Under the pieces are notes generated by a model, which did not search any database, was not told the origin of the DNA, and worked only from the letters and a program-made list of their open reading frames with translations. The position numbers were made by a program, and so were the translations under genes. Shown in pieces: positions 2,455 through 22,062 of a stretch of 31,759 nt of DNA. The stretch spans positions 1-31,759 of the IMG/VR virus record IMGVR_UViG_3300030109_003008. One strand, given 5' to 3'. Each line of letters begins with the position of its first letter. Position 1 is the first letter of the stretch. The stretch comes from a virus.

Positions 2455-2461
2455 TATTTAT
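2455..2461 (-). promoter_or_regulatory. ATAAATA motif on minus strand
   Basis: On the minus strand this reads CATAAATACA (2462-2453), close to the motif copies before real genes. It points left, towards the end of the LamG block, where no minus-strand gene is apparent. It is either an antisense/ncRNA promoter or a chance match in an AT-rich gap. Confidence 0.3.
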
Positions 2462-2872: not shown

Positions 2873-2925
2873 ATATTTATGCTGACTCAGTTTCTGTGCC
2901 TAGTTTTCTGGTTCAGCATAAATAT
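2873..2925. promoter_or_regulatory. 13-bp perfect dyad carrying two outward-facing ATAAATA motifs
   Basis: ATATTTATGCTGA at 2873-2885 and its exact complement TCAGCATAAATAT at 2913-2925 flank a 27-base spacer. Each arm contains the CAGCATAAATA form of the phage motif, so the two copies point away from each other. The right arm sits 18 bases before the ATG at 2943, with AGAAGGAGA between them. It could be paired divergent promoters, an operator, or an mRNA hairpin just above the ribosome site. Confidence 0.6.
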
Positions 2926-2942: not shown

Positions 2943-3218
2943 ATGGCAAAACACAATAACATAACAACACGTAAAGAACTATTGATATTGTTGCGTCTAA
3001 GGCAAATACAAAAGGATGCCATAGCGTTGCATAATTTACAACTGCGTAAAGGCAATAGAGAAGAACAAGCATTATACAATATCATGGTAATGACTTTGGA
3101 AAACACAATACAAATTTTGAAAGGCTGTTGCAAAGACGCCTGTCATATAACAGTACCTAAAGAAGAATGGGAACAACTGCCAGAAGGCGATATGATAAAT
3201 TGGAGGGATATGCAATGA
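2943..3218 (+). CDS. Unknown small protein, first gene of cluster
   Basis: A 91-residue protein beginning MAKHNNITTRKELL, with strong ribosome site AGAAGGAGA and the ATAAATA dyad directly upstream. Residues 10-60 look like two long charged helices (RKELLILLRLRQIQKDAIALHNLQLRK is basic and amphipathic). A short Cys pair follows (KGCCKDACH, about residues 60-68), then an acidic C-terminus. The two or three Cys plus His could bind a metal but do not match a known zinc ribbon. It overlaps the next gene by ATGA. No family is recognised; its place beside sigma70-like boxes suggests early expression. Confidence 0.7.
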   Translation: MAKHNNITTRKELLILLRLRQIQKDAIALHNLQLRKGNREEQALYNIMVMTLENTIQILKGCCKDACHITVPKEEWEQLPEGDMINWRDMQ

Positions 3219-3376
3219 CACCAGAAGAAAGAAAACATCAACTTGCAGAACAAACAAGGGCATTGTTAGAAGCAGTGTCAATCACTGAGATCACAAGGAA
3301 GAAAGAACAAAAAATGATAGAAAAAAAAGCAAAAGAAATATTCAGACAAAACTATGGAAGGAAAAACAATGAGTAA
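3215..3376 (+). CDS. Unknown small charged protein
   Basis: A 53-residue protein (MTPEERKHQLAEQ...). I chose ATG 3215 because it overlaps the previous stop as ATGA and follows GGAGGGA at 3202-3208; a longer frame from 3167 lacks such a site. The sequence is almost entirely helical and highly charged, with a lysine-rich C-terminal half (KKEQKMIEKKAKEIFRQN) that could form a coiled coil or bind nucleic acid. Function unknown. Confidence 0.6.
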   Translation: MTPEERKHQLAEQTRALLEAVSITEITRKKEQKMIEKKAKEIFRQNYGRKNNE

Positions 3377-3920
3377 GTTTCACACACCAGCGTCAGGTGG
3401 ATACACTGACAAGAACGGCAAGTTTAAGAAAGCAGTAATGGTAGTAGGCACAACTGATGAAAGGATATCAGCATACGTGTGGTTAGCAAATCTGCAATCA
3501 ATTGTGGATGAACTGTTATCCAAGCAACAACTGCCAGGATGGAACACACACGATGTAGAAATAATAGGAGGTATGGCGGCCAACATAGCACCAATACACA
3601 GGGGCGGCCGTAATAAAGACATAACCTCAAACCAATTAATGAAATTTATTAGGGCGTTCAAGAAGATAAAGAATGCTTTGGAGTCACACTACAATGAAAA
3701 ATTGAGCGTGAATCCGTATTTCAAACCAGACAACTATGAAGACGAAGAACCGCAGTTGTCAAGCCAGGTAGTCAAGAGATCCATGGACGAACAACGTGCC
3801 ACGTCCGCAGATCAAGATTGGCTAAAACAAAATCCTGATTTGATCACTGACAAGTTACCAGTGTTCAAAAATGTTTGGTTTGATTACTACAAAAAGCAAA
3901 AACAAAAGACCAAGCACTAA
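3369..3920 (+). CDS. Unknown 183-residue protein
   Basis: Starts MSKFHTPASGGYTDKNGKFKKAV at ATG 3369, behind GGAAGGAAA and overlapping the previous gene by 8 bases; an in-frame ATG at 3354 has a poorer site. A beta-rich N-terminus (AVMVVGTTDERISAYVWLANLQSIVDELL) precedes a helical, basic middle (MKFIRAFKKIKNALESHYN) and a charged C-terminus ending KKQKQKTKH. I see no helix-turn-helix, nuclease or sigma-factor pattern. It is the largest unknown protein of the 2.9-4.3 kb cluster, so it is a candidate for the missing replication or transcription control function, without direct evidence. Confidence 0.7.
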   Translation: MSKFHTPASGGYTDKNGKFKKAVMVVGTTDERISAYVWLANLQSIVDELLSKQQLPGWNTHDVEIIGGMAANIAPIHRGGRNKDITSNQLMKFIRAFKKIKNALESHYNEKLSVNPYFKPDNYEDEEPQLSSQVVKRSMDEQRATSADQDWLKQNPDLITDKLPVFKNVWFDYYKKQKQKTKH

Positions 3921-3926
3921 TAAATA
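3920..3926 (+). promoter_or_regulatory. Late-promoter-like ATAAATA
   Basis: AATAAATATTG overlaps the stop codon of the 183-residue gene. It is the first intergenic motif before the packaging genes (next ATG at 4075, about 150 bases on). A transcript from here would carry the hairpin at 3987-4035 in its leader. Confidence 0.45.
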
Positions 3927-3986
3927 TTGTTTGCAATAGGTATCTAATTACGTGCTCAAACTAGTTAAAACCTACTGCTTATAAGT

Positions 3987-4035
3987 GTGCGTCATGCTGT
4001 TCCAAAACCCTTGCAGGTTCCCAAGCATGGCGCAC
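3987..4035 (+). repeat. Inverted repeat in leader of terminase operon
   Basis: GTGCGTCATGCT (3987-3998) pairs with AGCATGGCGCAC (4024-4035) at 11 of 12 positions around a 25-base loop. It is followed by A-rich sequence, not T, so it is not an intrinsic terminator. It may be an mRNA processing or stability element ahead of the gene at 4075. Confidence 0.5.
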
Positions 4036-4074
4036 TAAAAAAGAAACTAAAACAACATAACACAAAGGAAAAAA

Positions 4075-4254
4075 ATGAGACAAACATTGACAGACCAAGA
4101 ACTTACAGTAATCGTTAGAATAATAGACACTGCAGGACAGAGAGGTGTATTCAGAGGACCCGACCTTACAACTGTAGGACAGATACATGACAAGATTGTA
4201 TCTATGTTACCAAAACCAAAACCAGAGGCAGACAAAAATGACGACAAAAAATAG
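4075..4254 (+). CDS. Small unknown protein before terminase small subunit
   Basis: A 59-residue protein (MRQTLTDQELTVIVRIIDTA...) with ribosome site AAAGGA. A helical first half (DQELTVIVRIIDTAGQRGVF) is followed by TTVGQIHDKIVSML and a charged tail ending ADKNDDKK. Short proteins of this LxxxELxxIVxxI...TVGxIxxKI style are common as hypothetical proteins in T7-like marine phages as far as I recall, but I cannot name a function. It overlaps the terminase small-subunit start by 17 bases. Confidence 0.7.
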   Translation: MRQTLTDQELTVIVRIIDTAGQRGVFRGPDLTTVGQIHDKIVSMLPKPKPEADKNDDKK

Positions 4255-4555
4255 AGTTGAACAGGAATGGTTGAAAATACTCAAAGGCTTTGCTGATGAG
4301 TATTGGGAAAAAGAAATGATGGAGGCCAAAAATCTTTTTGACACCCCATACCCAAGTCCAGACGACAAGGACTTCATAAAGAAGACTACATTTCTTGACA
4401 ACAGCAAAAGGTCAAAATTGCAAATGTTGAAGTATCTAGCACAGGCATCTTCAGGTGCGGTGCATCCAACAGGTGCAAACAGCAGAGAAGAAAAAGATCA
4501 AGCGGCTAAACTCTTGGACATGGCACAAAAGAGAATACAAGCAAAAAATGGATAA
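4238..4555 (+). CDS. Terminase small subunit candidate
   Basis: A 105-residue protein beginning MTTKNRVEQEWLKILKGF, directly before the large terminase with a TAATG junction. I chose ATG 4238, behind AGAGG, rather than the longer frame from 4187, whose first 17 codons lie inside the 59-residue gene. It is acidic and helical, with the segment KRSKLQMLKYLAQASSGAVHPTG and a basic C-terminus. T7 gp18-type small subunits are about this size and sit here; they recognise DNA and regulate cutting and packaging. Assignment is mainly positional. Confidence 0.6.
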   Translation: MTTKNRVEQEWLKILKGFADEYWEKEMMEAKNLFDTPYPSPDDKDFIKKTTFLDNSKRSKLQMLKYLAQASSGAVHPTGANSREEKDQAAKLLDMAQKRIQAKNG

Positions 4556-6024
4556 TGTTAAAGACATCTTTCAAAGTATTCTTAGATACATTGAACATTG
4601 TATCAAACCAAGAAACACCTGAACTGCATTGTGAGATTGCTGATTGGTTGGAAAAAACAGATCATGAACCCAGAAGGATGTGTCAAGTGTTTAGGCACGG
4701 TGGCAAAAGTTACATATTGGGTGCATACATCTGTTGGAAACTGCTTACGGATCCAAACTGGACCTGTCTGCTGATATCCGCCAAACGTAATCTTGCACTG
4801 CGTAACAGTTTATTCATACGTAATCTTATAGAATCACACCCCATGTTACAACACATGAAGAGTGATCTGTATCAATGGAAAGCAGAAACATTTACTGTTG
4901 AAAGACCAATCATGCAATTAAATCCTTCTGTTACTGTAAGTAGTTTAGGTGCGTCATTTACGGGATTTCATGCCTCGATGGTAATTGCAGACGACATCGA
5001 GACGAGTGATAACTGTCTAACTATGGACCAGCGTGAAAAGATCAAAGAACGTGTTGCTGAATTTGGAAAATTATCAAAACAGATATTGATGTTTGGCACA
5101 CCGCACCATGAGATGTCAATATATCTGCATCTACAAGACATAGGATATGTGGAAAAAAAGATACCAGTGGTAAGAACAAAGATGGTTAAACAGGAAGACT
5201 CTACAGAAATGGAAGAAGAATACCTTGCTTGGCCAGACCACCCAGAAGAAATGTTTAGTTACAATTGGTTAGAACAACAGAGACGTGAAACAACAGAAGG
5301 TGATTTTAATTCGCAATACATGTTGATACCACAAACAGTCTATCAACCATTAATTGACCTTGAAAAAATTAACACCTATGAAGATGAATTTGAATGGCAA
5401 CAAATTGCACAACCATTTGGTAATTACATCAACGCATGTAGGTTAGGCAAACGTAACATCACAAGATTGGTTGGTGCATGGGACGTTGCGACAGGATTAC
5501 AAAACAGAGACAACAGTGTGTTGTCAATATGTGCAAGGGATGATGATGGTAATACCTTTGTCCATGATGTTAAAGTTTTATCTGCTGTTGATGAAGAAAC
5601 AAAAGATTTTAGAAATCAGTGTCGTGAAGTTATTTTAGCGTGTGCATATCACAAGTTGAACAACATAATTGTTGAAGAAAACTTCAGTCAGACGCTGGCG
5701 AGTGAATTAAGACGTGTGGCCAAAGAAATGAAAGTGTTTGTAAACATCATACCAAGATTCAGAACAACCAATAAAAAAGTTTTCATAGCACAGACCATTG
5801 AACCAATTATTAAAGTTGGTAGGTTATATGTGCATAAAAAGGTTGATGAACAATCACCGTTTATGGATGAATTGATGGCGTTTCCAAGGAACAAGATGGA
5901 TGACTGTATTGATGCCACGTGTGAAGCAATTAACTACTTGCCTAATATAGCCGTAGATGTATCTAAAGTTGGTAGGATTTCTAACCCTCTCAACAACGCT
6001 GGTTCGTCGTTTAAGATTAATTAA
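4555..6024 (+). CDS. terL: Terminase large subunit (T7 gp19-like)
   Basis: A 489-residue packaging ATPase and nuclease that moves DNA into the prohead through the portal and cuts it. Visible motifs: a Walker A region VFRHGGKSYI at about residues 45-54, a Walker B MVIADDIE at about 142-149, and a coupling motif QILMFGTPHH at about 177-186. The C-terminal nuclease carries GAWDVATGLQNRDNS (D310), an acidic IIVEEN (about 371-376) and KMDDCIDA (D449/D450). The P-loop is a little unusual because His-Gly-Gly replaces the usual R-G-x-G-K order. Length fits the podovirus family (T7 gp19 is nearly 590). The C-terminal end marks the boundary of this cluster. Confidence 0.92.
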   Translation: MLKTSFKVFLDTLNIVSNQETPELHCEIADWLEKTDHEPRRMCQVFRHGGKSYILGAYICWKLLTDPNWTCLLISAKRNLALRNSLFIRNLIESHPMLQHMKSDLYQWKAETFTVERPIMQLNPSVTVSSLGASFTGFHASMVIADDIETSDNCLTMDQREKIKERVAEFGKLSKQILMFGTPHHEMSIYLHLQDIGYVEKKIPVVRTKMVKQEDSTEMEEEYLAWPDHPEEMFSYNWLEQQRRETTEGDFNSQYMLIPQTVYQPLIDLEKINTYEDEFEWQQIAQPFGNYINACRLGKRNITRLVGAWDVATGLQNRDNSVLSICARDDDGNTFVHDVKVLSAVDEETKDFRNQCREVILACAYHKLNNIIVEENFSQTLASELRRVAKEMKVFVNIIPRFRTTNKKVFIAQTIEPIIKVGRLYVHKKVDEQSPFMDELMAFPRNKMDDCIDATCEAINYLPNIAVDVSKVGRISNPLNNAGSSFKIN

Positions 6025-6050
6025 ACATTCAAACCAGGTAAATAATTGGA

Positions 6051-6082
6051 CTGACAAGAGTATTTATATTTGATTATATAAT
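6051..6082 (+). promoter_or_regulatory. Candidate sigma70-like promoter before structural operon
   Basis: CTGACA (6051-6056) precedes TATATAAT (6075-6082) with an 18-base spacer to TATATA, in the only gap between terL and the next gene. The same gap holds a minus-strand ATAAATA copy. AAAGGA and the ATG at 6110 follow. Confidence 0.35.
6061..6068 (-). promoter_or_regulatory. TATAAATA on the minus strand
   Basis: The minus strand reads ATATAAATACTC, a full match to the T4 late-promoter octamer. It points into the 3' end of terL, so use would make antisense RNA. It may simply be part of the AT-rich promoter region for the rightward genes. Confidence 0.3.
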
Positions 6083-6109
6083 ATACACACGCACGAAAAG
6101 GATTGACAA

Positions 6110-6469
6110 ATGAAGATTTATTCAAAATTAGTTTGGGACAAAGATTTTAACATCATAGAAGAATTATCATCAGAATACACAGGCCCAGTTGCGAAGATGA
6201 TGTGCATATCGCCACCACCTCCGCCACCACCACCACCACCGCCACCACCACCACCAAGTCCAGCACCCGCACCTGCACCAACAGGCAGTAGCAGAAGAGG
6301 AACTGGTAGAAGAGCAACAGCGGCTGGTAGAGGTAGAGGTGTATTGATCAGATCAAGATCACCACTAGGTGTAACTGATCCAAATGAATTAGGTGCAAGA
6401 AAAAATTTACTACAACCAACTCTTAAAGCGGCACAGAACGTTATGAGATTATTAGGAGGCGGCTACTAA
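6110..6469 (+). CDS. Small protein with 15-proline tract, portal-proximal
   Basis: A 119-residue protein with three parts. An N-terminal beta-like segment (MKIYSKLVWDKDFNIIEELSSEYTGPVAKM) resembles short head-region proteins of marine podoviruses. Next comes an uninterrupted run of 15 prolines (residues 35-49, bases 6212-6256), continued by SPAPAPAPT. The last part is arginine/glycine-rich (RRGTGRRATAAGRGRG) and ends in LLGGGY. Its ATG follows AAAGGA, and it overlaps the next gene by TAATG. The position between TerL and portal suggests a minor virion or connector-associated protein. The proline run would stall ribosomes unless EF-P assists. Confidence 0.7.
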   Translation: MKIYSKLVWDKDFNIIEELSSEYTGPVAKMMCISPPPPPPPPPPPPPPPSPAPAPAPTGSSRRGTGRRATAAGRGRGVLIRSRSPLGVTDPNELGARKNLLQPTLKAAQNVMRLLGGGY

Positions 6470-6768
6470 TGTGTTTTCCTAAAGTGCCTGAGATGCCTTC
6501 AGCGGCAGAAATGCAAAAGCAACAACTAGAAACACAAAGAGCATTGCAACGTGATGCTGATGACAGAGCGGCTGGTGAACTTGCAGACGAAAGACGTAGA
6601 GCAAGAAGAACACAAATTAGACAAAGTGCTAGAAGAAGAGGGAGATCAAGTTTGATAACAAGAAGAGATATTGCTGGTGGATTGTTTGGAGCAACTGACA
6701 CAGGCGCGGCGGCTAACACAATTACTCCTTTGAATCCTGGCATAACTAATTCAATATCAAACTACTAA
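6469..6768 (+). CDS. Small arginine-rich protein upstream of portal
   Basis: A 99-residue protein starting MCFPKVPEMPSAAEMQKQQLE. The MCFxxPxMP start is a pattern I associate with small structural proteins next to podovirus portals. A helical, highly charged centre (ERRRARRTQIRQSARRRGRSSLITRRD, residues about 42-68) gives way to a glycine/alanine/asparagine-rich C-terminus. Likely a minor virion protein; no enzyme motif is visible. It is coupled to the upstream gene by TAATG, and the portal ATG follows six bases after its stop. Confidence 0.65.
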   Translation: MCFPKVPEMPSAAEMQKQQLETQRALQRDADDRAAGELADERRRARRTQIRQSARRRGRSSLITRRDIAGGLFGATDTGAAANTITPLNPGITNSISNY

Positions 6769-6773
6769 CAGAT

Positions 6774-8288
6774 ATGGAACAATTTATTGCAAAGGCCTAC
6801 AAACTGGCCAAAAATGCTAGAGAAATACACGAAGACGAGATCTCTGAAGCATACAAATATACAAGACCTAACAGAGACATCTACAGAGCAGACAACAACA
6901 AGACAGACAGAACAAAGATATATGATTCAACTGCTGTTGATGGTGTGCAGAATCTAGTATCAACAATCTTAAATTTATTAATACCACAATCAAGCCAATG
7001 GGCAACGCTGTCAGTCAGAGAAGACATCAAAGAACGTGTGGCGTCAGATGTAAAAAAAGCACTGGATGTTGCAAACAGAACAGTGTTTAAAACAATCAAA
7101 GATTCAAACTTCTATGTTGCGGCGTCAGAAGCATTGACAGATGCTATCATATCTGGTTGCGGTTGTATTGGTACATATGAAGACCAAGACGTCAATTTCA
7201 TAGCAATACCAAGTTATCAATTATATTTTTTAGACAACGCCAAAGGCGAGATAGACACAGTATTCAGAGAACACGAACTTACAGGACAATACATCATAGA
7301 AAAATACGGTGAAGTGTTGGACGAAGACATGCGTCAGTCATGCACAGAAGACCCATACAAGAAACACAAAGCACTTGAAAGTTGTTTCCGTATGCCAAAT
7401 GAAACGGATTATACCTACGTGGTGCAAATAGGCAAGGACAACAAGATCATGGAGATGAGAAAAATGCCAGTGCCTATGTTTACAGTTTTTAGATTTGGCA
7501 AGACAGTGGGAGACACATGGGGTGCCAGTCCAATCAGAGAAGCGTTACCACACATTAGAGTTGTAAATGAAGCACAATTCTTGTTCATGCAGAGTGCGGC
7601 ATACCTATCAATGGGTGCTTGGATGGTGTCAAGTGACACAGCGGTTAACTTCAGCAACATGAGATTGAATCCAGGTGATGTTATCACTGTTGACAGTGAA
7701 CTTAAACCTGTGCCATTCCCAGGACAGTTGAATGTTACAGAAGCAACAATACAGGATCATAGAACACAGATAAGAAGAATGTTGTTCAACGATGTTATAT
7801 TACCACCAGAAGAATCAAAATACCAAACTGCCACAGAAATACAGACTAGGCAAGCGGAGTTCTATCGTAGGTTAGGCCCATATGGTCTTAGACTAGAAGC
7901 AGAATTCTTAAAACCTGTTGTTGGTAATCTTATTGTAAGATTGCAACAAAGAGGTGAAGTTGAAGATTTCGTCATAGACGGACAACAGTTTGAATTGGTA
8001 GTGAACAGTGCAGTCAAGAGAGGTATTGCATTAACAGAAATACAAAGAGACTTACAGTTGTTATCAACAATACAACAACTAGGTCCAGAAGCAATGGCGA
8101 ATGTGAACACACAGAAACTTGCTAGAAAAATTTTACGAGATGGAGACATGTCACCAGAGGCGGTGCGTAGCGAAAGTGAAGTAGAAGAACTACTACAACA
8201 AGCACAGCAACAACAACAAGCGATACAATTACAAGAAGCCGCTAGAGCAATCGCTGGTCAGAATCCAGATCCTAATACACCTGCGTAA
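6774..8288 (+). CDS. Portal (head-tail connector) protein, T7 gp8-like
   Basis: A 504-residue protein that forms the dodecameric ring at the head vertex, the channel for DNA and the base for the tail. Typical features of the T7-type head-tail connector family are visible: ISEAYKYTRPNRDIY near the N-terminus, TAVDGVQNLVSTILNLLIPQSSQWATL (about 53-79), FRFGKTVGDTWGASPIREALPHIRVVNEAQ (about 238-267), and TATEIQTRQAEFYRRLGP (about 350-367). A glutamine-rich tail (LLQQAQQQQQAIQLQEA) ends the protein. Length is close to T7 gp8 (536). A Bbp19-like gene and scaffold follow. Confidence 0.92.
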   Translation: MEQFIAKAYKLAKNAREIHEDEISEAYKYTRPNRDIYRADNNKTDRTKIYDSTAVDGVQNLVSTILNLLIPQSSQWATLSVREDIKERVASDVKKALDVANRTVFKTIKDSNFYVAASEALTDAIISGCGCIGTYEDQDVNFIAIPSYQLYFLDNAKGEIDTVFREHELTGQYIIEKYGEVLDEDMRQSCTEDPYKKHKALESCFRMPNETDYTYVVQIGKDNKIMEMRKMPVPMFTVFRFGKTVGDTWGASPIREALPHIRVVNEAQFLFMQSAAYLSMGAWMVSSDTAVNFSNMRLNPGDVITVDSELKPVPFPGQLNVTEATIQDHRTQIRRMLFNDVILPPEESKYQTATEIQTRQAEFYRRLGPYGLRLEAEFLKPVVGNLIVRLQQRGEVEDFVIDGQQFELVVNSAVKRGIALTEIQRDLQLLSTIQQLGPEAMANVNTQKLARKILRDGDMSPEAVRSESEVEELLQQAQQQQQAIQLQEAARAIAGQNPDPNTPA

Positions 8289-8293
8289 CACTG

Positions 8294-8301
8294 TATAAAT
8301 A
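8294..8301 (+). promoter_or_regulatory. Late-promoter-like TATAAATA before Bbp19-like/scaffold genes
   Basis: TGTATAAATACAAC, a full T4-type late octamer, stands in the 50-base gap after the portal gene and 38 bases before ATG 8339. No -35-like hexamer is visible at the expected distance. Confidence 0.55.
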
Positions 8302-8338
8302 CAACTGAACATAACTTAACAATAACAGAACGCAAACT

Positions 8339-8572
8339 ATGAAAACCACAAGACAGATCCAACAACATTATCGTCAGGTATTTGAATCACCTGCAGGACA
8401 AGCCGTAATAGAAGATTTAGAAAGAGTAGTGAACCAAACACGTGTTAGTTCAGACTCGCCAAATCCATATTCAGCGGTATACATCATTGGCCAACAGCAG
8501 TTGATAAGAAGGATACGTAACATGATGAAGGAGACTAGTGCCGTTCAAAATAACAAGGAGCATATAATCTAA
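8339..8572 (+). CDS. Bbp19-like small phage protein
   Basis: A 77-residue protein (MKTTRQIQQHYRQVFESPAGQAVIEDLERVV...). The pattern F-x-S-P-A-G-Q-x-V-I-x-D-L-E-R followed by A-x-x-x-x-G-Q-x-x-L-I-x-R-I matches my memory of the Bbp19-like family, found beside portal and scaffold genes in podoviruses. Its molecular role is not settled; a virion assembly role is likely from position. The ribosome site is weak. Its stop overlaps the scaffold start by TAATG. Confidence 0.6.
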   Translation: MKTTRQIQQHYRQVFESPAGQAVIEDLERVVNQTRVSSDSPNPYSAVYIIGQQQLIRRIRNMMKETSAVQNNKEHII

Positions 8573-9342
8573 TGGCTGAAGAAACACAGACACAAGAACA
8601 AGCACCAGTAGAAAACACAAACACTGGTCTTCTAGAAACAACACAAGAACAGGTGCAACCAGACACAAGTCAAGCAACAACGCCAGAACAAACAGAGGCG
8701 GATGCGAGACCTGAATGGTTACCAGAAAAATTCAAGACTGGCGAGGACCTAGCAAAATCCTACAGCGAACTTGAAAAGAAAATGACCAACCACGTACCCA
8801 AGGAATATGATTTCAGCGTGACCAAAGAGATTGGATTAGCGGACTTCCCAGAAGACCTTACACAAGAAGTCACTGACGTGTTCAAGAAGGCAAACTTCTC
8901 ACAGGGACAGGTCAAGACAGCACTTGCACTCTACAGTGATCAATTGGCAAAGATACAGGACCAAATGCAGAACGCACCAAGGACTGATCTAGGCAAGGAA
9001 GAATCAGCATTGAAGACACAATGGGGTGATCAATACGACAACAGGTTACAGGCAGTGAAGAAATTTGCAAACACACTACCTGAACGTGTGTTGAACGTGC
9101 CACTGGTTGACAGTGCAGAAGGTATCATGTATCTAGAACAGATAATGGAAGCGGGCAGGATGCCAAATCCAATACAGAACAACACTGTGATAGGCAAGCA
9201 AGATCCAATAGAGATCAGAGAAGAGATACAGAAGATGAGGGGCGACCCAAAGATGAAGTTACCTCCTGGAGATCCATTGGGCGACGCACACCAACAGAGA
9301 CTATACGCACTATACGAGAAACTAGACAGACTAGAGAAGTAG
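8572..9342 (+). CDS. Capsid assembly scaffolding protein, T7 gp9-like
   Basis: A 256-residue acidic protein with a Gln/Thr/Glu-rich, probably disordered first third. The segment PEWLPEKFKTGEDLAKSYSELEKK (about residues 43-66) is characteristic of scaffolding proteins of T7-like marine phages. The C-terminal part is helical and ends in LYALYEKLDRLEK. Scaffold directs capsid protein into the prohead and leaves before DNA enters. Unlike in T7, the capsid gene does not follow: 5 kb of accessory genes lie between. Confidence 0.85.
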   Translation: MAEETQTQEQAPVENTNTGLLETTQEQVQPDTSQATTPEQTEADARPEWLPEKFKTGEDLAKSYSELEKKMTNHVPKEYDFSVTKEIGLADFPEDLTQEVTDVFKKANFSQGQVKTALALYSDQLAKIQDQMQNAPRTDLGKEESALKTQWGDQYDNRLQAVKKFANTLPERVLNVPLVDSAEGIMYLEQIMEAGRMPNPIQNNTVIGKQDPIEIREEIQKMRGDPKMKLPPGDPLGDAHQQRLYALYEKLDRLEK

Positions 9343-9343
9343 T

Positions 9344-9919
9344 ATGAGTGGCGTGGCCAACAGCACAGATCTACGTGACTACGTGCAGGTGTATCAGAAC
9401 CTGCTGAAGCCAGAGACCTGTGCAAAAATCATTGAATGGGCGGACCAGCAACCTGACGCTGACAGCGGTTGGGACGGTTGGGAAGTGGCCAAGTCCGCCG
9501 TTTCAAACACAGAGAACGAGGTCACCAAGCACAGGAAGTGTGATTTCACTATGATGAATGAACACAGGGGCGTTTGTGTTGATCAGATAGAGCAGGCCAT
9601 ATACCACATACAACAGACCTATCCATACCATCATGGCACCACAGCACACACAGGCATACAGATCATGCGTTATGGCGAAGGACACTACTTTGAAGAACAC
9701 ATAGATCACTATGGTGGTGCGGAGCGTATACTTTCTATGAGCATATATCTCAACGACCAATACACTGGCGGTGAGTTAACTTTCTGGCAGGACAAATTAC
9801 AACACAGCAACATGCACACAGGTGATGCAGTGGTGTTTCCCAGCAACCTGTGTTTCCCACACGAGGTCAAACCAGTGTTGTTGGGCACTAGATATGTGAT
9901 TGTTGTATGGCTGTTGTAA
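9344..9919 (+). CDS. 2-oxoglutarate/Fe(II) dioxygenase, prolyl-4-hydroxylase-like
   Basis: A 191-residue enzyme of the P4H-type 2OG-Fe(II) oxygenase superfamily, which hydroxylates a peptide or other substrate with O2 and 2-oxoglutarate. The iron-binding triad is visible: HID (H119, D121) and H173 in CFPHEVKPV. R183 in GTRYVIVVW is the expected 2-oxoglutarate anchor. TGGELTFWQDK and GDAVVFPS are typical strands around the site. Such genes are common auxiliary genes in marine cyanophages. The substrate is unknown; this phage has a 15-proline virion-region protein, but any link is speculation. GC of a sampled 60-base stretch is about 53%, above the capsid gene (about 38%). Confidence 0.85.
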   Translation: MSGVANSTDLRDYVQVYQNLLKPETCAKIIEWADQQPDADSGWDGWEVAKSAVSNTENEVTKHRKCDFTMMNEHRGVCVDQIEQAIYHIQQTYPYHHGTTAHTGIQIMRYGEGHYFEEHIDHYGGAERILSMSIYLNDQYTGGELTFWQDKLQHSNMHTGDAVVFPSNLCFPHEVKPVLLGTRYVIVVWLL

Positions 9920-10014
9920 AGAAATGCAAACGTGATCTACTGTGGACTGTGTATCACACAGTGCTGGTGGCGGAATTGGCCATAGTCATAGTGCTGTTGT
10001 ATCTTCAGATCTAG
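9907..10014 (+). CDS. Single-span membrane micro-protein (holin candidate)
   Basis: A 35-residue frame, MAVVKKCKRDLLWTVYHTVL..., overlapping the end of the oxygenase gene by 13 bases. A basic N-terminus (KKCKR) is followed by about 23 hydrophobic residues ending LAIVIVLLYLQI, a clear transmembrane helix with an inside-positive start. There is no good ribosome site, so translation would depend on coupling. A pinholin-like or regulatory lysis role is possible, since no other holin or endolysin is recognised. It could also be a chance frame, although long unbroken hydrophobicity with a charged start is uncommon by chance. Confidence 0.45.
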   Translation: MAVVKKCKRDLLWTVYHTVLVAELAIVIVLLYLQI

Positions 10015-10100
10015 AATGGGTCATCCCCTAGCAGATCTTACCAAAAAAAATTTGTTTTCAGAATGGGTCAAACGCTAGGCGCGATTACCAGAAAAAATCA
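10013..10100. repeat. Two imperfect direct repeats, 47-bp period
   Basis: AGAATGGGTCA occurs exactly at 10013-10023 and 10060-10070. After each copy comes CTAG-like sequence and then TTACCAAAAAA or TTACCAGAAAAAA. The pair fills the gap between the rightward oxygenase/micro-protein genes and the end of the leftward operon. No GC stem plus T run is visible, so it is not an obvious bidirectional terminator; a protein-binding site is possible. Confidence 0.55.
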
Positions 10101-10129
10101 CGAAAAATCCTGATTGTGCGGTAATACCA

Positions 10130-10483
10130 TTACTCGCTGTCTTGTTCATACTCTATCCATCTGTCAACAGCCGCCTTCATATCTTTGTCGTTGACATCGT
10201 AAGTTGCTTCATCTAGGAATATTGTTCCGTCTTCTTCATCAACTTCATCACTGTCATATGATTCCATATAACCAGCCGCCATACGATCACGGACCTGTTG
10301 TAATTGGTCAGGACAGGCTATCCTTCCTGTCTTAACGCTCGCGACATAGCGTTCGTCCGTAACGTCTACTACGGTGTAAAAATAGTCCGTGTAGGTTTTG
10401 TCGTAGGTGTGCTCAACCTTCACCATCTGTTTACCAGGCGGTAATGCTCCCAGGTTGGTAAATGTGCGTAGTTTACTCATCAT
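10130..10483 (-). CDS. Unknown acidic protein, third gene of minus operon
   Basis: A 117-residue protein starting MMSKLRTFTNLGALPPGKQMVKVEHTYDKTYTDYFYTVVDV. The first half looks like a small beta sheet; the second half is strongly acidic (YDSDEVDEEDGTIFLDEATYDVNDKD). The start ATG overlaps the upstream stop as ATGA, so translation is coupled. No family is recognised. Acidic, beta-rich small proteins in such early operons are often DNA mimics or host-takeover inhibitors, but nothing here proves that. Confidence 0.65.
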   Translation of the reverse strand: MMSKLRTFTNLGALPPGKQMVKVEHTYDKTYTDYFYTVVDVTDERYVASVKTGRIACPDQLQQVRDRMAAGYMESYDSDEVDEEDGTIFLDEATYDVNDKDMKAAVDRWIEYEQDSE

Positions 10484-10755
10484 CTACCCCGCTCTATGTC
10501 AGCCAGTCTACGCTTACAACCAGCGATCAATAACTTGCGCCATTTGTTTGGTTCCTTGTCAGATTCAACGATGATGGTGCTAGTGTCGCCATCCCTGTTG
10601 TAGGTAGTGTATGCTGATGTGACCCCAACTCCTTCATCGTGTATGATGTGTGTGACGTAGGGGTCTGTGTTTACATATTCTTGCCAGGCCGCGGGATCTG
10701 TTTCTGCCAGTTTAGCGGCTTCAGATCTAGTCAGCCATTTTGTTTGTTTTGTCAT
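10480..10755 (-). CDS. Unknown small protein, second gene of minus operon
   Basis: A 91-residue protein starting MTKQTKWLTRSEAAKLAETDPAAWQEYVN, with a good ribosome site AAAGGAGC. The N-terminal helix is followed by a beta-like centre (VTSAYTTYNRDGDTSTIIVESDKE) and a basic end (WRKLLIAGCKRRLADIERGR). LTRSEAAKLAETDPAAW has some resemblance to the start of small DNA-binding proteins, but no complete helix-turn-helix is seen. Function unknown. Confidence 0.65.
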   Translation of the reverse strand: MTKQTKWLTRSEAAKLAETDPAAWQEYVNTDPYVTHIIHDEGVGVTSAYTTYNRDGDTSTIIVESDKEPNKWRKLLIAGCKRRLADIERGR

Positions 10756-10781
10756 AACGTGCTCCTTTTGTTTATGTTACA

Positions 10782-11189
10782 TTACTTGCGTAAATTAGTC
10801 AACCTTTCTTCATACCAGAAATGACGGTTTTCCTTTGTTCCTTGCTTGGCCGCCCTTACTTCATACATACTATCTCGCTCAGGTTGTTGCTTGGCCAGTT
10901 CTTCAGCCTTGGCCCAGTCCTTTACCATCTGTTCTGCTGATCTAGTGTCCGCGGGTTTTTTTATGGTAAATGCGTCTTTGTCTTTGGCCAGTATCTCAGA
11001 GCGTAAATCAGATAATAGCCATTCATATTGCTTGTTTGGTGATACGTAAAAACTCCACTTCAATAGGTGATAACGTTCCATCAGATCGCGATTCAACCAC
11101 TGCGTTGTTTCATCACAATCTTTACACTCTTTTATAGTGCTTTTACGTATTATGCGACGCCATTGTTGTATACTTGTAATCTGTGCCAT
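10782..11189 (-). CDS. Unknown 135-residue protein, first gene of minus operon
   Basis: Begins MAQITSIQQWRRIIRKSTIKECKDCDETTQWLNRDLMERY. It is a charged, tryptophan-rich helical protein with one ECKDCD Cys pair near residues 21-26. No family is recognised. The ATG lies only nine bases after a minus-strand ATAAATA and no Shine-Dalgarno sequence is visible, so the mRNA could be leaderless. The operon of three leftward genes is the only minus-strand set in the genome, and it starts at the edge of the repeat-rich region, suggesting control separate from the virion genes. Confidence 0.65.
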   Translation of the reverse strand: MAQITSIQQWRRIIRKSTIKECKDCDETTQWLNRDLMERYHLLKWSFYVSPNKQYEWLLSDLRSEILAKDKDAFTIKKPADTRSAEQMVKDWAKAEELAKQQPERDSMYEVRAAKQGTKENRHFWYEERLTNLRK

Positions 11190-11198
11190 TTACTAGTG

Positions 11199-11205
11199 TA
11201 TTTAT
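11199..11205 (-). promoter_or_regulatory. ATAAATA promoter of the leftward operon
   Basis: The minus strand reads AGCATAAATACAC, identical over 13 bases to the plus-strand copy at 11953-11965. It lies just before ATG 11189. The two copies point outward from the 750-bp repeat region, so they form a divergent pair. Confidence 0.55.
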
Positions 11206-11462
11206 GCTAATGTGTTTACAGACTGCTTGAATGTGAGTTTGGTAATGCCGCCCATACCAGGTTGCGTAAGAGTTTGGTTGATTTGGTGTGTTTGGTCGTT
11301 TGGTCTAGCAGGAGCACGGACCTTACCATTACCAGATTTGGTAATCGCCGTAGATAATTGTAGTGTGTTTATGGATGTTGGCTGACTTGGTCGTTATGGT
11401 TGTTGCGGTAAAGCATAGTAGAGCCACCGTGTGAATGATACAGCCAACCGCTTAAAGGTTTA

Positions 11463-11552
11463 CCAGAGTAGGCCACCGTAGGCACCATTCAGCCAGATTG
11501 GGCCAGAGTAGGCCAGCCAGGGTCAGATTGGGCCAACCTCAACCAGGGTCAG
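11463..11552. repeat. Iteron-like GC-rich degenerate repeats
   Basis: Three different short repeats are interleaved here, each present twice: CCAGAGTAGGCCA (40 bp apart), CAGATTGGGCCA (30 bp apart) and CCAGGGTCAG (26 bp apart). All share the core CCAGnnTnGG and the GGCCA word, so they look like diverged copies of one binding site. Confidence 0.65.
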
Positions 11553-11954
11553 GGGGCCTTAGATAGGTTGGGTCTACGGTAACACTCTACCTACCCAGAT
11601 AATTGGGCCACAACCTTTGGTAAAGTGTTACCCTAGGCCCACGCTTGATGCGAACCACGTCAGGGCCACGAAGGTGATCAGGGCCAGGGCCGTGAGCACA
11701 TATATATAATTCATACTAGAGTATAGCACGATCCTAGAATTTGGTCAACCAGATAGTTTGGTAAAGTTGGCGACAGTAGGCCCCACAAAAACTGCAAGAT
11801 TGGTAATATGTAGTAACTTCCATTTTCCACGGCCATCGTTTAAGTTAACCGTTCTGACAGTAAATACAGTTAGGCCCACGGGTGCAATACTCCTCTTGAC
11901 GAGGCGCCATATAGTAGTTGCATCCAGGGCCAACTCCAGCCAGTCAGCACCAGC

Positions 11955-11961
11955 ATAAATA
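11955..11961 (+). promoter_or_regulatory. ATAAATA promoter before HNH-like and basic-protein operon
   Basis: CAGCATAAATACAC lies 17 bases before ATG 11979, with GAAGGAGA in between. A start about six bases after the motif would give a very short leader that still contains the ribosome site. It is the rightward partner of the divergent copy at 11199. Confidence 0.55.
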
Positions 11962-11978
11962 CACGGAAGGAGATCACA

Positions 11979-12329
11979 ATGAACACCAAAAAAATTTTAC
12001 GCAAATACAAGGGTGCGGACAAGTCTAGGCCCGCCATGTGGAAGACAGGCACGGACCCACAGCGCCATGCCCAATACCGTGCATGGATGCTGAAGAAGAC
12101 ACAGGCCAGATACAGGGACGAGGCATGGTCGTTGACCTTTGAGGACTTTGAACAGTTATGGTCAGGCAGATGGTTCATGCGGGGCAGGGACGGCCTATGG
12201 TTGACCAGGGTGGACAACACACGTGCATGGAGCAAGGCCAACTGCAGGTTGGCCACACGTAGCAGACATTTTAAACATGTATTAAAAAACTACAAGGGAC
12301 TTAAATACTCAAAAACAAAACACTTTTAG
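11979..12329 (+). CDS. HNH-like nuclease/DNA-binding protein (divergent)
   Basis: A 116-residue basic protein. The segment HAQYRAWMLKKTQARYRDEAWSLTFEDFEQLW followed by LWLTRVDNTRAWSKANCRLATRSRHF aligns by eye with phage HNH-type proteins carrying RIDNxxGYxPxNCRWATxxEQ. The Asp-Asn and Asn-Cys-Arg positions are kept (VDN, ANCRLAT). A canonical catalytic His pair is not obvious, so it may bind DNA or be a weakened nuclease. It starts directly beside the candidate origin behind GAAGGAGA. A nicking role in replication or transcription, or a homing endonuclease remnant, are both possible. Confidence 0.5.
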   Translation: MNTKKILRKYKGADKSRPAMWKTGTDPQRHAQYRAWMLKKTQARYRDEAWSLTFEDFEQLWSGRWFMRGRDGLWLTRVDNTRAWSKANCRLATRSRHFKHVLKNYKGLKYSKTKHF

Positions 12330-12340
12330 GAGGACTCACG

Positions 12341-12409
12341 ATGCACAAGAAAGGCAAGAAGCACAAGAAAAAAGGCGGAAAACGTGGCGGCAAGAAAAGA
12401 AGAGGTTGA
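12341..12409 (+). CDS. 22-residue polybasic peptide
   Basis: ATG 12341 follows an almost ideal ribosome site (AGGAGG at 12328-12333, spacing 7) and encodes MHKKGKKHKKKGGKRGGKKRR-G. Thirteen of 22 residues are Lys or Arg, with two His and no acidic residue. It overlaps the GTG start of the next gene. The strong ribosome site argues for real translation. A DNA- or RNA-condensing peptide, or a translated leader for the next gene, are the main possibilities. Confidence 0.55.
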   Translation: MHKKGKKHKKKGGKRGGKKRRG

Positions 12410-12752
12410 TTGGGCGAGTTACTTCGCTTCAATAGTCAGCGTGTGTCCATGGTCAAAAGCATATTGGCACAAGCAGAAGATTGAGGTGTGTGACTGGCAG
12501 GGAGAACACACAATCAAACCACTTGGCCGTGTAGTGGCCAGGATGTACTTGCACAGGAGGGCCAGTGCAAGGCAGTTGAAAAAGTTCATGGAAAGATTCA
12601 ACTGTGAGAGGCCAAAGGAGGAATGGCTGTATAGCCACCCAAGATTTGGCGGGCACTCAACACCAGTGGGTGTGCTGATACAACAGGATCACGCACTGCT
12701 GACTAAGATAAGGAAACAGAATGACAAAAAAGATACCAAAAGGCTTCCATAG
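12384..12752 (+). CDS. Unknown 122-residue protein
   Basis: Starts at GTG 12384 (MAARKEEVDWASYFASIVSVCPWSKAYW), with AAGGCGGA upstream. The WASYF-SI-SVCPWS-AYWxxxIEVCDW stretch near the N-terminus looks conserved; I recall similar hypothetical proteins in marine phages but cannot name a function. The middle is basic (RRASARQLKKFMERFNCERPKEEW), and the C-terminus ends NDKKDTKRLP. It overlaps the next small gene by 32 bases. No catalytic motif is seen. Confidence 0.65.
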   Translation: MAARKEEVDWASYFASIVSVCPWSKAYWHKQKIEVCDWQGEHTIKPLGRVVARMYLHRRASARQLKKFMERFNCERPKEEWLYSHPRFGGHSTPVGVLIQQDHALLTKIRKQNDKKDTKRLP

Positions 12753-12900
12753 GACCAAGTCAGGAAGGATAGCACGTAAAGGCCTGTATTACTATGCTAA
12801 CAAGAGACGGAAAGCAGGCAAGAAACCAATCAAAAAAGGCAGACCAGGTTACGTCACGAGGGCGGCAGTGACCAGATCAGCCAGAACAGCGAGGAGTTAG
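12721..12900 (+). CDS. Small basic protein, 59 residues
   Basis: MTKKIPKGFHRTKSGRIARK followed by GLYYYANKRRKAGKKPIKKG. It has about 21 Lys/Arg and no acidic residue. The HRTKSGRIARKGLYYYANKRRKAG pattern resembles small basic proteins of marine phages that I recall as hypothetical or DNA-binding. The ribosome site AAGGA lies six bases before the ATG. It probably binds nucleic acid, perhaps packed with DNA in the head or bound to the genome during infection. Confidence 0.6.
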   Translation: MTKKIPKGFHRTKSGRIARKGLYYYANKRRKAGKKPIKKGRPGYVTRAAVTRSARTARS

Positions 12901-12903
12901 ACG

Positions 12904-13035
12904 ATGGCAAGACCAAAAGGCAGAAAACTTTCACCAAAACAGATGAAGATAGCAAAGGCGGCACCACCTTTCAACAGGATCACGGGCAGGGACTTTGCTG
13001 TGCTGAGAACAGGCAGGAAGAAAAAGAAGAGATAA
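12904..13035 (+). CDS. Small basic protein, 43 residues
   Basis: MARPKGRKLSPKQMKIAKAA then PPFNRITGRDFAVLRTGRKKKKR. The ribosome site GAGGAG at 12891-12896 is well placed. About 16 of 43 residues are Lys/Arg, with a single Asp. The LSPKQxKIAKAAPPFNxITGxDF core looks like a conserved small phage motif; the function is unknown. Its stop overlaps the next ATG (TAATG). Confidence 0.6.
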   Translation: MARPKGRKLSPKQMKIAKAAPPFNRITGRDFAVLRTGRKKKKR

Positions 13036-13178
13036 TGAAAAAAACAATCAAAGCACCAAGGGGATACCACTGGATGAAGCGTAAGTCAGGTTTCAACCTG
13101 ATGAAAGGCGCATACAAACCACACAAGGGTGCCGTGAAGCGGGCATCATTCAAGGTGGTCAAGAAACATAGGAGTTAA
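13035..13178 (+). CDS. Small basic protein, 47 residues
   Basis: MKKTIKAPRGYHWMKRKSGF then NLMKGAYKPHKGAVKRASFKVVKKHRS. It has about 16 Lys/Arg and no acidic residue. The PxGYHWMK...LMKG.YxPHxGAVxxASFKV pattern looks like a compact conserved domain in marine phages (memory, unverified). It is translationally coupled by TAATG to the gene before it. It probably acts on nucleic acid or inside the virion together with its neighbours. Confidence 0.6.
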   Translation: MKKTIKAPRGYHWMKRKSGFNLMKGAYKPHKGAVKRASFKVVKKHRS

Positions 13179-13192
13179 CATGGAGGTGCAGG

Positions 13193-13429
13193 ATGGCCGG
13201 GACGAAAAAGGCCAAAGGCCAACAGACAGTTCATACGAAATACTACCGCAATGGTCAGGAATGGAAACCAGCGATGGTGATCACACGCAAAATGTTTGGC
13301 AATGGCTACAAAGAATATATGGCCGCACAAAGCGTCCAGACAGGAGAATTATACAGGAATAGCCACGGCAGGATAGCACCATGGCACTCAATACAGTTTA
13401 CAAGTATTGAACCAGATGAAATAAAATGA
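13193..13429 (+). CDS. Unknown 78-residue protein
   Basis: MAGTKKAKGQQTVHTKYYRNG followed by QEWKPAMVITRKMFGNGYKEY. I chose ATG 13193 because GGAGG lies at 13182-13186; a different frame from 13180 is less protein-like. The protein mixes basic and aromatic residues and ends HSIQFTSIEPDEIK. No family is recognised. It overlaps the next gene by ATGA and belongs to the same tight run of small basic genes. Confidence 0.6.
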   Translation: MAGTKKAKGQQTVHTKYYRNGQEWKPAMVITRKMFGNGYKEYMAAQSVQTGELYRNSHGRIAPWHSIQFTSIEPDEIK

Positions 13430-13656
13430 GAAAACTAAACAAACCATTCAGGACACCAGGCAAGAGCAAAAAATTTGCCGTGCGTGTGCGTAATCCAAAA
13501 ACTGGCAACGTGAAGACTGTGAGATTTGGTGATCCCAACATGCGTATCAAGAAGAATCAACCAGCACGTAGGCGTAGTTTCCTAGCAAGGCACAGGTGTT
13601 CAACACCAGGACCAAAGACAAAGGCGAGATATTGGTCATGCAAGATGTGGCGTTAG
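13426..13656 (+). CDS. Conserved small basic phage protein (RRRSF.ARH.C..PGPK family)
   Basis: A 76-residue protein. It contains KFAVRVRNPKTGNVKTVRFGDPNM followed by ARRRSFLARHRCSTPGPKTKARYWSCKMW, a pattern I recognise from many T4-like cyanophages and other marine phages as a conserved protein of unknown function. Two cysteines with a His (ARHRC, SCKMW) could bind a metal. About 25 residues are Lys/Arg and one is acidic. It is likely to be real and conserved. Its role may be in the virion or on DNA; no experiment I know of defines it. Confidence 0.75.
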   Translation: MRKLNKPFRTPGKSKKFAVRVRNPKTGNVKTVRFGDPNMRIKKNQPARRRSFLARHRCSTPGPKTKARYWSCKMWR

Positions 13657-14165
13657 AATGCACAGTCATAGGTAATGGCCATAGCAGGCGCAAACATAAC
13701 CTAGAAGACATCAATCATCCAACATTTGGATGCAATCAAATATACACAGAATACCAACCATCATGGCTGATAGCCAAAGACAGGCGTGTGCTGGAACAGA
13801 TGACACGTGACGGAGTCAAACAGGTCTACGTGCCAATGATGTCACACAGGGCACACAGGGAGACCAGCACCATCAACATACCAGACATGCGTGAGATACG
13901 TTTTCCGTTGTTCAGGATGAACAGTTGGCTCACAGGAGAGATAGCCATCGTGTTCGCGGCACAGATGGGTTTCAAAAACATCAACGTGATTGGTTTTGAC
14001 GGTGGACACACCAGCATGTATCGTGGCAACACAGACACAAACTCCAGCATGATACACTGCCAAGTGCCCAAATGGAGATACGAACACACGTTTGATAAAA
14101 TATACGCACATTATCCTGATATCAATATAAAAACAGATAAAGACTTTTTGCGAACTTATAAATAA
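13638..14165 (+). CDS. DUF115/MptE-like or glycosyltransferase-like protein
   Basis: A 175-residue protein starting MQDVALECTVIGNGHSRRK at ATG 13638; a frame from 13596 would overlap the previous gene further. A nucleotide-binding-like VIGNGHSRRK near the N-terminus, TFGCNQIY (about 33-40), a DRRVLEQM segment and INVIGFDGGHTSMYRGN (about 115-131) recall the DUF115/6-hydroxymethylpterin pyrophosphokinase-like fold and related sialyltransferase-like proteins. It might modify a surface sugar or a nucleotide. The stop codon overlaps TATAAATA, the motif upstream of the capsid gene. Confidence 0.45.
   Translation: MQDVALECTVIGNGHSRRKHNLEDINHPTFGCNQIYTEYQPSWLIAKDRRVLEQMTRDGVKQVYVPMMSHRAHRETSTINIPDMREIRFPLFRMNSWLTGEIAIVFAAQMGFKNINVIGFDGGHTSMYRGNTDTNSSMIHCQVPKWRYEHTFDKIYAHYPDINIKTDKDFLRTYK
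14157..14164 (+). promoter_or_regulatory. Late-promoter-like TATAAATA before major capsid gene
   Basis: CTTATAAATAATCACG matches the T4 late octamer completely and overlaps the stop of the DUF115-like gene. The capsid ATG is 177 bases on, so the transcript would carry a structured leader. There is no TTGACA-like element 17-18 bases before it. Confidence 0.6.
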
Positions 14166-14340: not shown

Positions 14341-15234
14341 ATGGCTTTAGTAGCAAATGCTGGAACGAGTGTATCTAATGCATTCAGCACTATGTTTAGT
14401 GATGATGTAAAACACGCTTATCAGCAACTTACAGCAAACCTTTTGGGATCTGTTAGAGTAGTTAGAAATGTAACTGGAAGCACTTACAAATTTAACACTT
14501 TAACAAAAGGTGGTTCTATCAAGAACAAAGCAAGATTTGAAGATATCGTAGTGATGTCTGATACATCTAAATCCCTAACTTCACCAGGTGCCTACACAGG
14601 CGGAACGGCTCAGAACGCACAGGTAACTGCCACTTTGGCAAATTACCATGCAGGTGAGTATGTTCAAACACTTGATGAGGTGAAAACTAACGTAGACTTA
14701 CGTCAATCTTTTGCAGAATCAATTGCGGCGGCCCTAGCGAGAGCAACGGACCAATCAATTGTTGATGCCTTAGATGCAGGTACGCCTACAAACATTAAAA
14801 CAACAGCACAAGGTGCCAATGGATTAAACAAAGCGGCTCTTTTAGAAGCACATGAGGCGTTAAACGCTTTATCTGTTCCTGCAAATGACAGAGTTCTTTT
14901 AGTTTCACCTGCGGCTCTTACTGACATCTTAACTGACACAACAATCGTTTCAGCGGCTGATGGACAATTAAGTAACATCGCGTTATCAACTGGATTCATT
15001 CCAAACATCTTTGGATTCAGAGTGATATCAAGCAACCTTTTAACTGCAGATTCTGTAGTTAGAAAATGTTACGCTTTCCAAAAACAGTCAATTGGAGCGG
15101 CTATTGGTAGAGACGTTGGTATTCAGGTTAATTACGTTCCCCAAAAAGCATCAACACTTATCTTAGGTGAGATGTCAATGGGTGCAACAATGATTGACGC
15201 TGACGGCGTTGTTGAAATACAAGTAACGGAGTAA
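14341..15234 (+). CDS. Major capsid protein, HK97-fold (T7 gp10-like)
   Basis: A 297-residue shell protein with ribosome site AGGAGA. Visible features fit podovirus capsids: a helical N-terminus (NAFSTMFSDDVKHAYQQLTANLLGSVRVVRNV), the YKFNTLTKGGSIKNKARFEDIVV loop, DEVKTNVDLRQSFAESIAAALARATDQSIVDAL (spine helix) and PNIFGFRVISSNLL. A strong intrinsic terminator follows the gene. Codon use is shifted towards T-ending codons (GCT, CTT, TCT, GTT) compared with neighbouring genes, as expected for very high expression. The gene stands alone as a promoter-leader-gene-terminator unit. Length is shorter than T7 gp10A (345). Confidence 0.92.
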   Translation: MALVANAGTSVSNAFSTMFSDDVKHAYQQLTANLLGSVRVVRNVTGSTYKFNTLTKGGSIKNKARFEDIVVMSDTSKSLTSPGAYTGGTAQNAQVTATLANYHAGEYVQTLDEVKTNVDLRQSFAESIAAALARATDQSIVDALDAGTPTNIKTTAQGANGLNKAALLEAHEALNALSVPANDRVLLVSPAALTDILTDTTIVSAADGQLSNIALSTGFIPNIFGFRVISSNLLTADSVVRKCYAFQKQSIGAAIGRDVGIQVNYVPQKASTLILGEMSMGATMIDADGVVEIQVTE

Positions 15235-15260: not shown

Positions 15261-15301
15261 AGGCGGGTCTTCACTGGATTGTTGGGGGCTCGCCTTTTTT
15301 T
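15261..15301 (+). terminator. Intrinsic terminator after capsid gene
   Basis: AGGCGGG (15261-15267) pairs with CTCGCCT (15289-15295) over seven base pairs including one G-T pair. It is followed directly by seven T residues (15295-15301). It lies 26 bases after the capsid stop and is the clearest terminator in the genome. Confidence 0.85.
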
Positions 15302-15955: not shown

Positions 15956-15958
15956 TGA

Positions 15959-22053: not shown

Positions 22054-22062
22054 GGAGCAAAG

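Follow-up and report, generated by a model that had tools for sequence, protein, structure and literature searches.

Late-type promoters without a recognised reader in a complete marine phage genome: a tentative case for an integrative satellite virus

How is a viral genome transcribed when its promoters look like those that T4-like phages use late in infection and none of its genes looks like the factor that would read them? The question is raised by the IMG/VR record IMGVR_UViG_3300030109_003008, whose whole length of 31,759 bp was analysed here (the window), with gene starts called mechanically. An earlier note on this DNA had combined two observations, the presence of T4-late-type promoters and the lack of a gp55-like sigma, clamp or polymerase, into the proposal that the virus depends on a co-infecting T4-like phage. 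Both observations held in the present analysis. The reading favoured here, at a probability of roughly 0.4, is that the window represents an integrative phage resembling a satellite, whose transcription relies on a late-type factor provided in trans, perhaps by a helper other than an ordinary marine T4-like phage.

The genome itself is whole. Bases 1-98 are identical to 31661-31758, and this direct repeat (1..98) closes the record into a circle of 31,660 bp. Moreover, a fibre-like gene on the plus strand that is split by the contig ends (first part 31325..31759, continuing at 1-735 once the ends are joined) reads in frame across the junction, 31325..31660+1..735, as a protein of 356 aa. The window is thus a complete circular genome, save for the usual doubt over assembly overlaps, and genes missing from it are truly absent, which makes their absence meaningful. 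A fragment artefact is ruled out as its cause because the contig ends close. In the window, scans with PHROG and Pfam recognised genes for packaging, the head, the tail, internal virion proteins and fibres. They also showed a single 2OG-Fe(II) oxygenase gene and about 15 small genes of unknown function. The same scans recognised no polymerase, helicase, primase, sigma, clamp, repressor, integrase or lysis gene there, nor a single-subunit RNA polymerase of the Autographiviridae type; lysis genes could be present yet unrecognised. Searches of the window for RNA families and tRNAs, and for its DNA-level relatives among deposited phages, returned none.

Relatives were found by scanning viral contigs with the terminase, capsid and portal, and they amount to well over 100 related loci with one gene order wherever it is readable. 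One of them, G001 (31,576 bp), has a 123-bp end overlap and yields a second complete circle of 31,453 bp. Five further family genomes (G002, G003, G208, G209 and G210) measure 29.7-32.5 kb, and no longer contigs were found. No polymerase, helicase, primase or single-stranded DNA-binding protein was recognised in the window and these six genomes. The similar sizes and the lack of a replication module are therefore family properties rather than those of one fragment, and the window is a complete genome from a new family of integrative marine-bacterial phages, roughly 30-32.5 kb long, with a T7-type particle. The satellite trait of lacking replication genes for independent growth is thus found in the window and these genomes, with two exceptions in the family: G002 has a clamp-loader-like ATPase, and an element from a single cell has a weak Rep-like protein. 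The variable regions of the family carry DNA methylases, HNH nucleases, integrases and unknown genes, and apart from these two proteins no replication, transcription or lysis genes were seen in them. The G002 protein (L074:4650-5393, minus strand) is an AAA protein of the T4 gp44 type (PHROG 168, 4e-36), about 30% identical to cyanophage gp44, with its own ATAAATA site upstream. The same genome carries an S-adenosylmethionine decarboxylase gene (L074:7189-7629, plus strand), which adjoins clamp genes in the T4-like cyanophage S-RIM8.

No promoter class other than the late type is apparent in the window. ATAAATA occurs 11 times, at 2918, 3920, 8295, 11955, 14158, 15309 and 26644 on the plus strand and at 2455, 2874, 6061 and 11199 on the minus strand. 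Nine of these copies are wholly non-coding, whereas dinucleotide shuffling of the non-coding stretches themselves gives an expectation of 0.72 (P <= 0.0005). The remaining two overlap gene ends, by one base of a stop codon at 3920 and by the last codons of the open reading frame (ORF) 13641-14165 at 14158. Within the non-coding DNA of the window, ATAAATA is the top enriched 7-mer and TAAATA the top enriched 6-mer. Inside its genes the motif is absent, where 5.3 copies would be expected under synonymous-codon shuffling (P 0.005). Chance AT-rich words were ruled out as the origin of the signal by 20 permuted words and by the dinucleotide and codon shuffles. The octamer TATAAATA, with 3 sites in the window, is not remarkable alone, as 10 of 100 shuffles reach that number.

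The placement of the sites, mostly 10-40 bp upstream of start codons, also resembles that of promoters. The plus-strand site at 2918..2924 (AGCATAAATA) stands 18 nt before gene 2943, and that at 11955..11961 (AGCATAAATAC) 17 nt before gene 11979. A minus-strand operon (11189-10130) is directly preceded by a minus-strand site at 11199..11205 (AGCATAAATAC), so that orientations agree. Between the capsid and tail tube A genes, an intrinsic terminator (15262..15300, plus strand), conserved in the family, is immediately followed by the plus-strand site 15309..15315, which lies 19 nt before tail tube A and reads ATAAATA, CTAAATA or GTAAATA in relatives. Further plus-strand sites are found at 8295..8301 (TATAAATAC), between the portal gene and g8339; at 26644..26650, before the main fibre gene; at 3920..3926, within the gap that precedes the small-terminase operon (from 4075 on), where G002 and G003 have similar sites; and at 14158..14164 (TATAAATA), about 180 bp before the capsid gene. 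The sites at 15309, 8295 and 26644 and those in the gap between the large terminase gene (TerL) and g6110 are kept in many relatives, whose proteins are 51-92% identical. No -35 element is conserved upstream of the TAAATA sites; as in T4-type late transcription, TATAAATA-type promoters without a -35 precede late genes in the window. Judged from sequence, the TAAATA elements (mostly ATAAATA) behave as would be expected of sites that RNA polymerase uses, since relatives keep them at homologous positions and genes are purged of them.

A different process could leave a similar mark. If TAAATA were the site of an origin or Rep nicking, of packaging or of a repressor operator, it would merely look like a late promoter, and conserved inverted pairs at 6039/6061 and 2874/2918 fit such a role. 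The first pair, TAAATAAT...ATTTATA (6039..6067, plus strand at 6039 and minus strand at 6061), occupies the TerL-g6110 gap and is conserved in the family; seen as TAAATAAT/ATTATTTA, its spacer is kept in close relatives, and it might act as paired promoter, origin or packaging site. In the second, the minus-strand site 2874..2880 and the site at 2918 form the left and right arms of an 18-bp inverted repeat, and the resulting hairpin (2873-2925; -20.2 kcal/mol, z -4.9) has AGCATAAATA in both arms, on opposite strands. The weak Rep-like ORF of the single-cell element (PF23343, E = 6e-4) also speaks for this alternative. Against it stands the anatomy of a promoter: sites upstream of genes are concentrated 15-29 nt ahead of the start codon and are oriented with the gene, and one sits right behind a terminator. 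Purging, in addition, holds on both strands throughout genes, which suits a promoter better than an operator. This explanation is accordingly regarded as very improbable.

Words that a genome avoids within its genes give a hint of the machinery it encounters. The avoidance of the motif was compared across genomes, with ratios given as observed over expected under codon shuffling, codon-pair effects being ignored. The sets of family loci contain redundancy, and duplicates were removed on the basis of shared peptides, while the marine T4-like set consisted of 80 gp55-bearing contigs and three reference phages. Family genes (413 kb, non-redundant) contain 17 copies of ATAAATA against 110 expected, and marine T4-like genes (442 kb) contain 55 against 232. 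The genes of a SAR11 chromosome and of autonomous pelagiphages (217 kb) hold 184 copies against 174 expected. The neighbouring words AAAATA, GAAATA, TAAATC, TAAATG and TAAATT stay near 1, the family also purges words altered at the fourth base of TAAATA, and a second independent set of family loci gives the same profile. Upstream of genes, ATAAATA ranks first among 7-mers in the family (x22), in the pelagimyophage HTVC008M (x16) and in the cyanophage S-H9-1 (x9). Two other cultured SAR11 phages that share gene 13426, HTVC111P and HTVC202P, show no motif signature.

These comparisons bear on whether a host factor reads the promoters, either a housekeeping sigma for which TATAAA(T) serves as the -10 or an alternative sigma that infection induces, with a dependence on the host like that of HTVC010P-type phages. 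Cultured relatives with related capsids do use host polymerases, and ATAAATA is mildly enriched upstream of genes in the SAR11 chromosome (7/150, x6). However, ATAAATA is not purged from the SAR11 chromosome or from four SAR11 phages dependent on the host polymerase; in these four phages it is neither placed upstream of genes nor the top upstream 7-mer. Both sets instead purge TATAATA (0.68 in each), as expected for the -10 of sigma70, and the missing -35 also tells against a host sigma. The reading machinery is thus not ordinary SAR11 transcription, and a host factor appears rather improbable.

Evidence for the integrative habit, one that satellites share, comes from a capsid-alignment scan of genome contigs, which led to a 35-kb contig from the Pelagibacteraceae (SAR11) single cell AG-916-B03. 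Phage genes extend to about 26.6 kb and are followed by a complete tRNA-Lys, a gap, a broken second tRNA-Lys and chromosomal genes, assigned from sequence reading as tgt, ppi, coaD, gyrA, ssb and uvrA. Only the 5' 39 nt of the second tRNA-Lys are present, with the break at the anticodon loop. This layout reads as that of an insertion into a tRNA gene by an element that brings a replacement copy. The junction could possibly be a chimeric amplification product, although an end inside a tRNA would not be expected of one. A similar tRNA-Lys (95%) occurs in locus L013, part of one in L014/L015 and a tRNA-Arg in G001, and three relatives (G001, G208 and G209) encode integrases; the window itself yielded neither an integrase nor a tRNA. 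The single-cell contig points to SAR11 as the host of at least one member. Its 126-aa Rep-like ORF (L128:8744-9124, minus strand), which adjoins the tRNA-Lys and has HUH-like HVH and YxxK motifs, is possibly a replication or integration enzyme.

In the favoured reading, the TAAATA elements would act as late-type promoters, recognised by the host's core polymerase combined with a gp55-like specificity factor. The element would wait in integrated form, or would enter a cell together with another phage, and its transcription, and probably its replication too, would be performed by machinery that this other phage supplies in trans, in the manner of a satellite virus. Such a helper would be a phage whose late sigma has a specificity somewhat unlike that of the sampled marine T4-like phages. 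Taken together with the integrative habit and the lack of replication, regulator and lysis genes, the promoter signature places dependence on another phage ahead of its rivals.

Several points weigh against this account. No helper phage has been seen so far. The one single cell available, AG-916-B03, contains the element and no match to T4-like gp23 or gp55, a weak result, coming from one partial genome and lacking a positive control. Cultured phages with related capsids and without polymerases grow alone. Many small family genes of no known function could hide a factor. Several ATAAATA sites, among them the minus-strand site at 2455..2461 (CATAAATAC), with no gene behind it, head no gene on their own strand, and some form inverted pairs. 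Finally, the purging profiles differ at the base before TAAATA: GTAAATA is depleted in family genes (13/83, 0.16) and not in marine T4-like genes (172/174, 0.99), and the same applies to TTAAATA (47/125, 0.38, vs 295/300, 0.98).

A match in specificity between the family and marine T4-like phages is ruled out by these NTAAATA profiles. As the family purges two words that T4-like phages ignore, the factor that shaped its genomes probably resembles gp55 in its target without being the gp55 of the sampled marine T4-like phages. The earlier proposal of dependence on a T4-like phage thus keeps the T4-like behaviour of ATAAATA, the complete genome, the lack of a recognisable encoded factor and the integrative relatives on its side, and loses the specificity. 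This difference, together with the lack of gp23 and gp55 in AG-916-B03, disfavours an ordinary marine T4-like helper, which takes up only a lesser part of the probability given to the favoured reading.

The main rival holds that the phage is temperate and autonomous and that it makes its own, unrecognised late-type factor, which could be a diverged mini-sigma, a virion-borne injected factor or an activator redirecting the host sigma70. A specificity peculiar to the family and unlike marine T4-like gp55 is what a private factor would predict, and the integrases and the many short genes of no known function are compatible with it. Against it, a gp55 profile built from ten T4-like phage proteins found nothing below E = 1 in the window or the family, which makes an overlooked gp55 improbable. 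Protein sharing was compared by iterated profile searches, restricted to small proteins, among the window, G001-G003, G208-G210 and the single-cell element. Only the small terminase subunit (TerS), g6469, g8339 and structural proteins are common to all seven free genomes, and a 47-aa basic protein (13035) is found in 5 of the 8 genomes compared. No non-structural protein above 60 aa is common to all eight members, though all share the promoter. Structure models of 12384-12752 (pLDDT 77) and 3369-3920 (pLDDT 54, too low in confidence to be interpreted) gave no significant PDB match. Since the promoter is universal and no non-structural candidate of the size of a sigma is, a factor supplied in trans, by another phage or by a host state, is favoured by the sequence comparison. 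An own factor is held as a doubtful, though serious, explanation.

Known phages and satellites help to place the family. The argument that a virus without a polymerase must be a satellite is weak when taken alone: the OM43 phage MEP301 (PMC8024684) and HTVC010P-type phages such as Polarivirus skadi (PMC10504331) lack both DNA and RNA polymerase and grow on pure hosts. HTVC010P-type pelagiphages and MEP301 resemble the window in the head and tail module (28-35% capsid identity), size (about 34-36 kb) and lack of polymerases. Unlike the window, they retain lysis genes as well as regulators and a helicase loader or recombination genes, and they have no TAAATA signature. Similarity between the window and HTVC010P-type pelagiphages is distant and limited to capsid, tail and portal (22-34%), and their regulators and lysis genes were not found in the window. 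Across cultured phages, the terminase is only 26-28% and the capsid 28-35% identical to that of the window.

The late promoters of T4, cyanophages and HTVC008M (the gp55 regulon) share with the family the ATAAATA core, the absence of a -35, a position just before the ribosome-binding site and purging from genes. The family differs in also using and purging GTAAATA and TTAAATA, and gp55, gp33 and gp45 are not recognised in it; HTVC008M sites are mostly followed by G, and family sites are not. Late promoters of pelagimyophages were reported as not predictable (PMC7029224). By k-mer enrichment, those of HTVC008M are visible as (T)ATAAATAG and its early ones as GCTTGACTTT.

The closest precedent for a phage satellite that encodes a capsid and lacks a replicase is the pair MulchRoom and MiniFlayer from Streptomyces, described as satellite viruses with their own packaging and capsid genes, no replicase and, in one of them, a tyrosine integrase (PMC10690885); the comparison is one of description, and no sequence relation is known. 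The window, in contrast, encodes a whole T7-type virion with a tail, no helper has been seen for it, and promoters are not mentioned in that report. Capsid-forming PICIs are likewise integrative and have their own capsid and packaging genes, taking tails from the helper (summarised in PMC10690885), whereas this family encodes a full tail module of tail tubes, internal virion proteins and fibres. The closest analogy is Sputnik on mimivirus (PMC11998528), a capsid-encoding parasite with the helper's late promoter motif at some genes, though there the host is eukaryotic, the virus unrelated and the helper known. In its strongest form the favoured reading would make the family a widespread ocean group of obligate integrative satellite viruses, each with a whole T7-type particle and transcribed only via another virus's late sigma, a bacterial counterpart of virophages. 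So strong a version is considered unlikely.

The remaining gene content is that of a T7-type virion, with terminase, portal, scaffold-like protein, capsid, tail tubes A and B, internal virion proteins and fibres (PHROG). The portal, tail tubes and internal virion proteins (PHROG 332, 394, 376, 308, 418, 684) are those of the T7 group (Autographiviridae). The plus-strand operon from 4075 on contains a probable small terminase subunit (4238..4555, from its position and a weak helix-turn-helix match). TerL (4555..6024; PHROG 38, 7e-78), the portal, or head-tail adaptor (6774..8288; PHROG 332), scaffold-like protein (8572..9342; PHROG 3742/1052) and 2OG-Fe(II) oxygenase (9344..9919) follow on the same strand. 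A leftward island of three unknown genes (10130..11189, minus strand; 117, 91 and 135 aa) marks a site of variable cargo in the family. Next to it lies a GC-rich non-coding stretch of 789 bp (11190-11978) with many short repeats of the TAGGCCA/GGGCCAG type.

Further plus-strand genes encode a 116-aa protein with a weak match to HNH/endonuclease VII families (11979..12329), the 47-aa basic protein (13035..13178), conserved in about 48 loci including the distant G001, a 76-aa basic protein (13426..13656; PHROG 7595) and, conserved next to the capsid gene, a protein with weak glycosyltransferase/MptE-like matches (13641..14165). They are followed by the major capsid protein (14341..15234; PHROG 3437), tail tubular proteins A and B (15335..18064; PHROG 394 and 376), the internal virion protein module (18036..26639; PHROG 308, 418, 342, 684) and the tail fibre gene (26670..31313; PHROG 1640), all on the plus strand. 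The likeness of small genes to those of T4-like marine phages, which had hinted at shared hosts, survives in part. Gene 13426-13656 matches the T4-like phages C48C1 (67%), HTVC008M (51%) and Melnitz (40%), and the best cultured relatives of the oxygenase, at about 30%, are in T4-like cyanophages, but gene 13426-13656 is spread over many other types of marine phage as well. Two features of composition may be added. Gene 6110-6469 contains a run of proline codons (6212-6260), and family genes (about 280 kb) are nearly devoid of words around GCGC and AGCTC, a restriction-avoidance pattern that differs from that of HTVC008M (GATC, TCGA).

Capsid-encoding phage satellite viruses have been reported only recently, from Streptomyces. 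If the favoured reading is true, a widespread marine family, with one member in SAR11, would mean an additional level of parasitism in the ecology of ocean phages. It would also offer a cheap genomic test for dependence, in the form of late-type promoters that are purged from genes and occur without an encoded sigma. The purging test itself indicates a reader distinct both from ordinary SAR11 transcription and from ordinary marine gp55. Even if the idea of a helper fails, the family needs a host factor of an unexpected kind or else a late-type specificity factor that is new.

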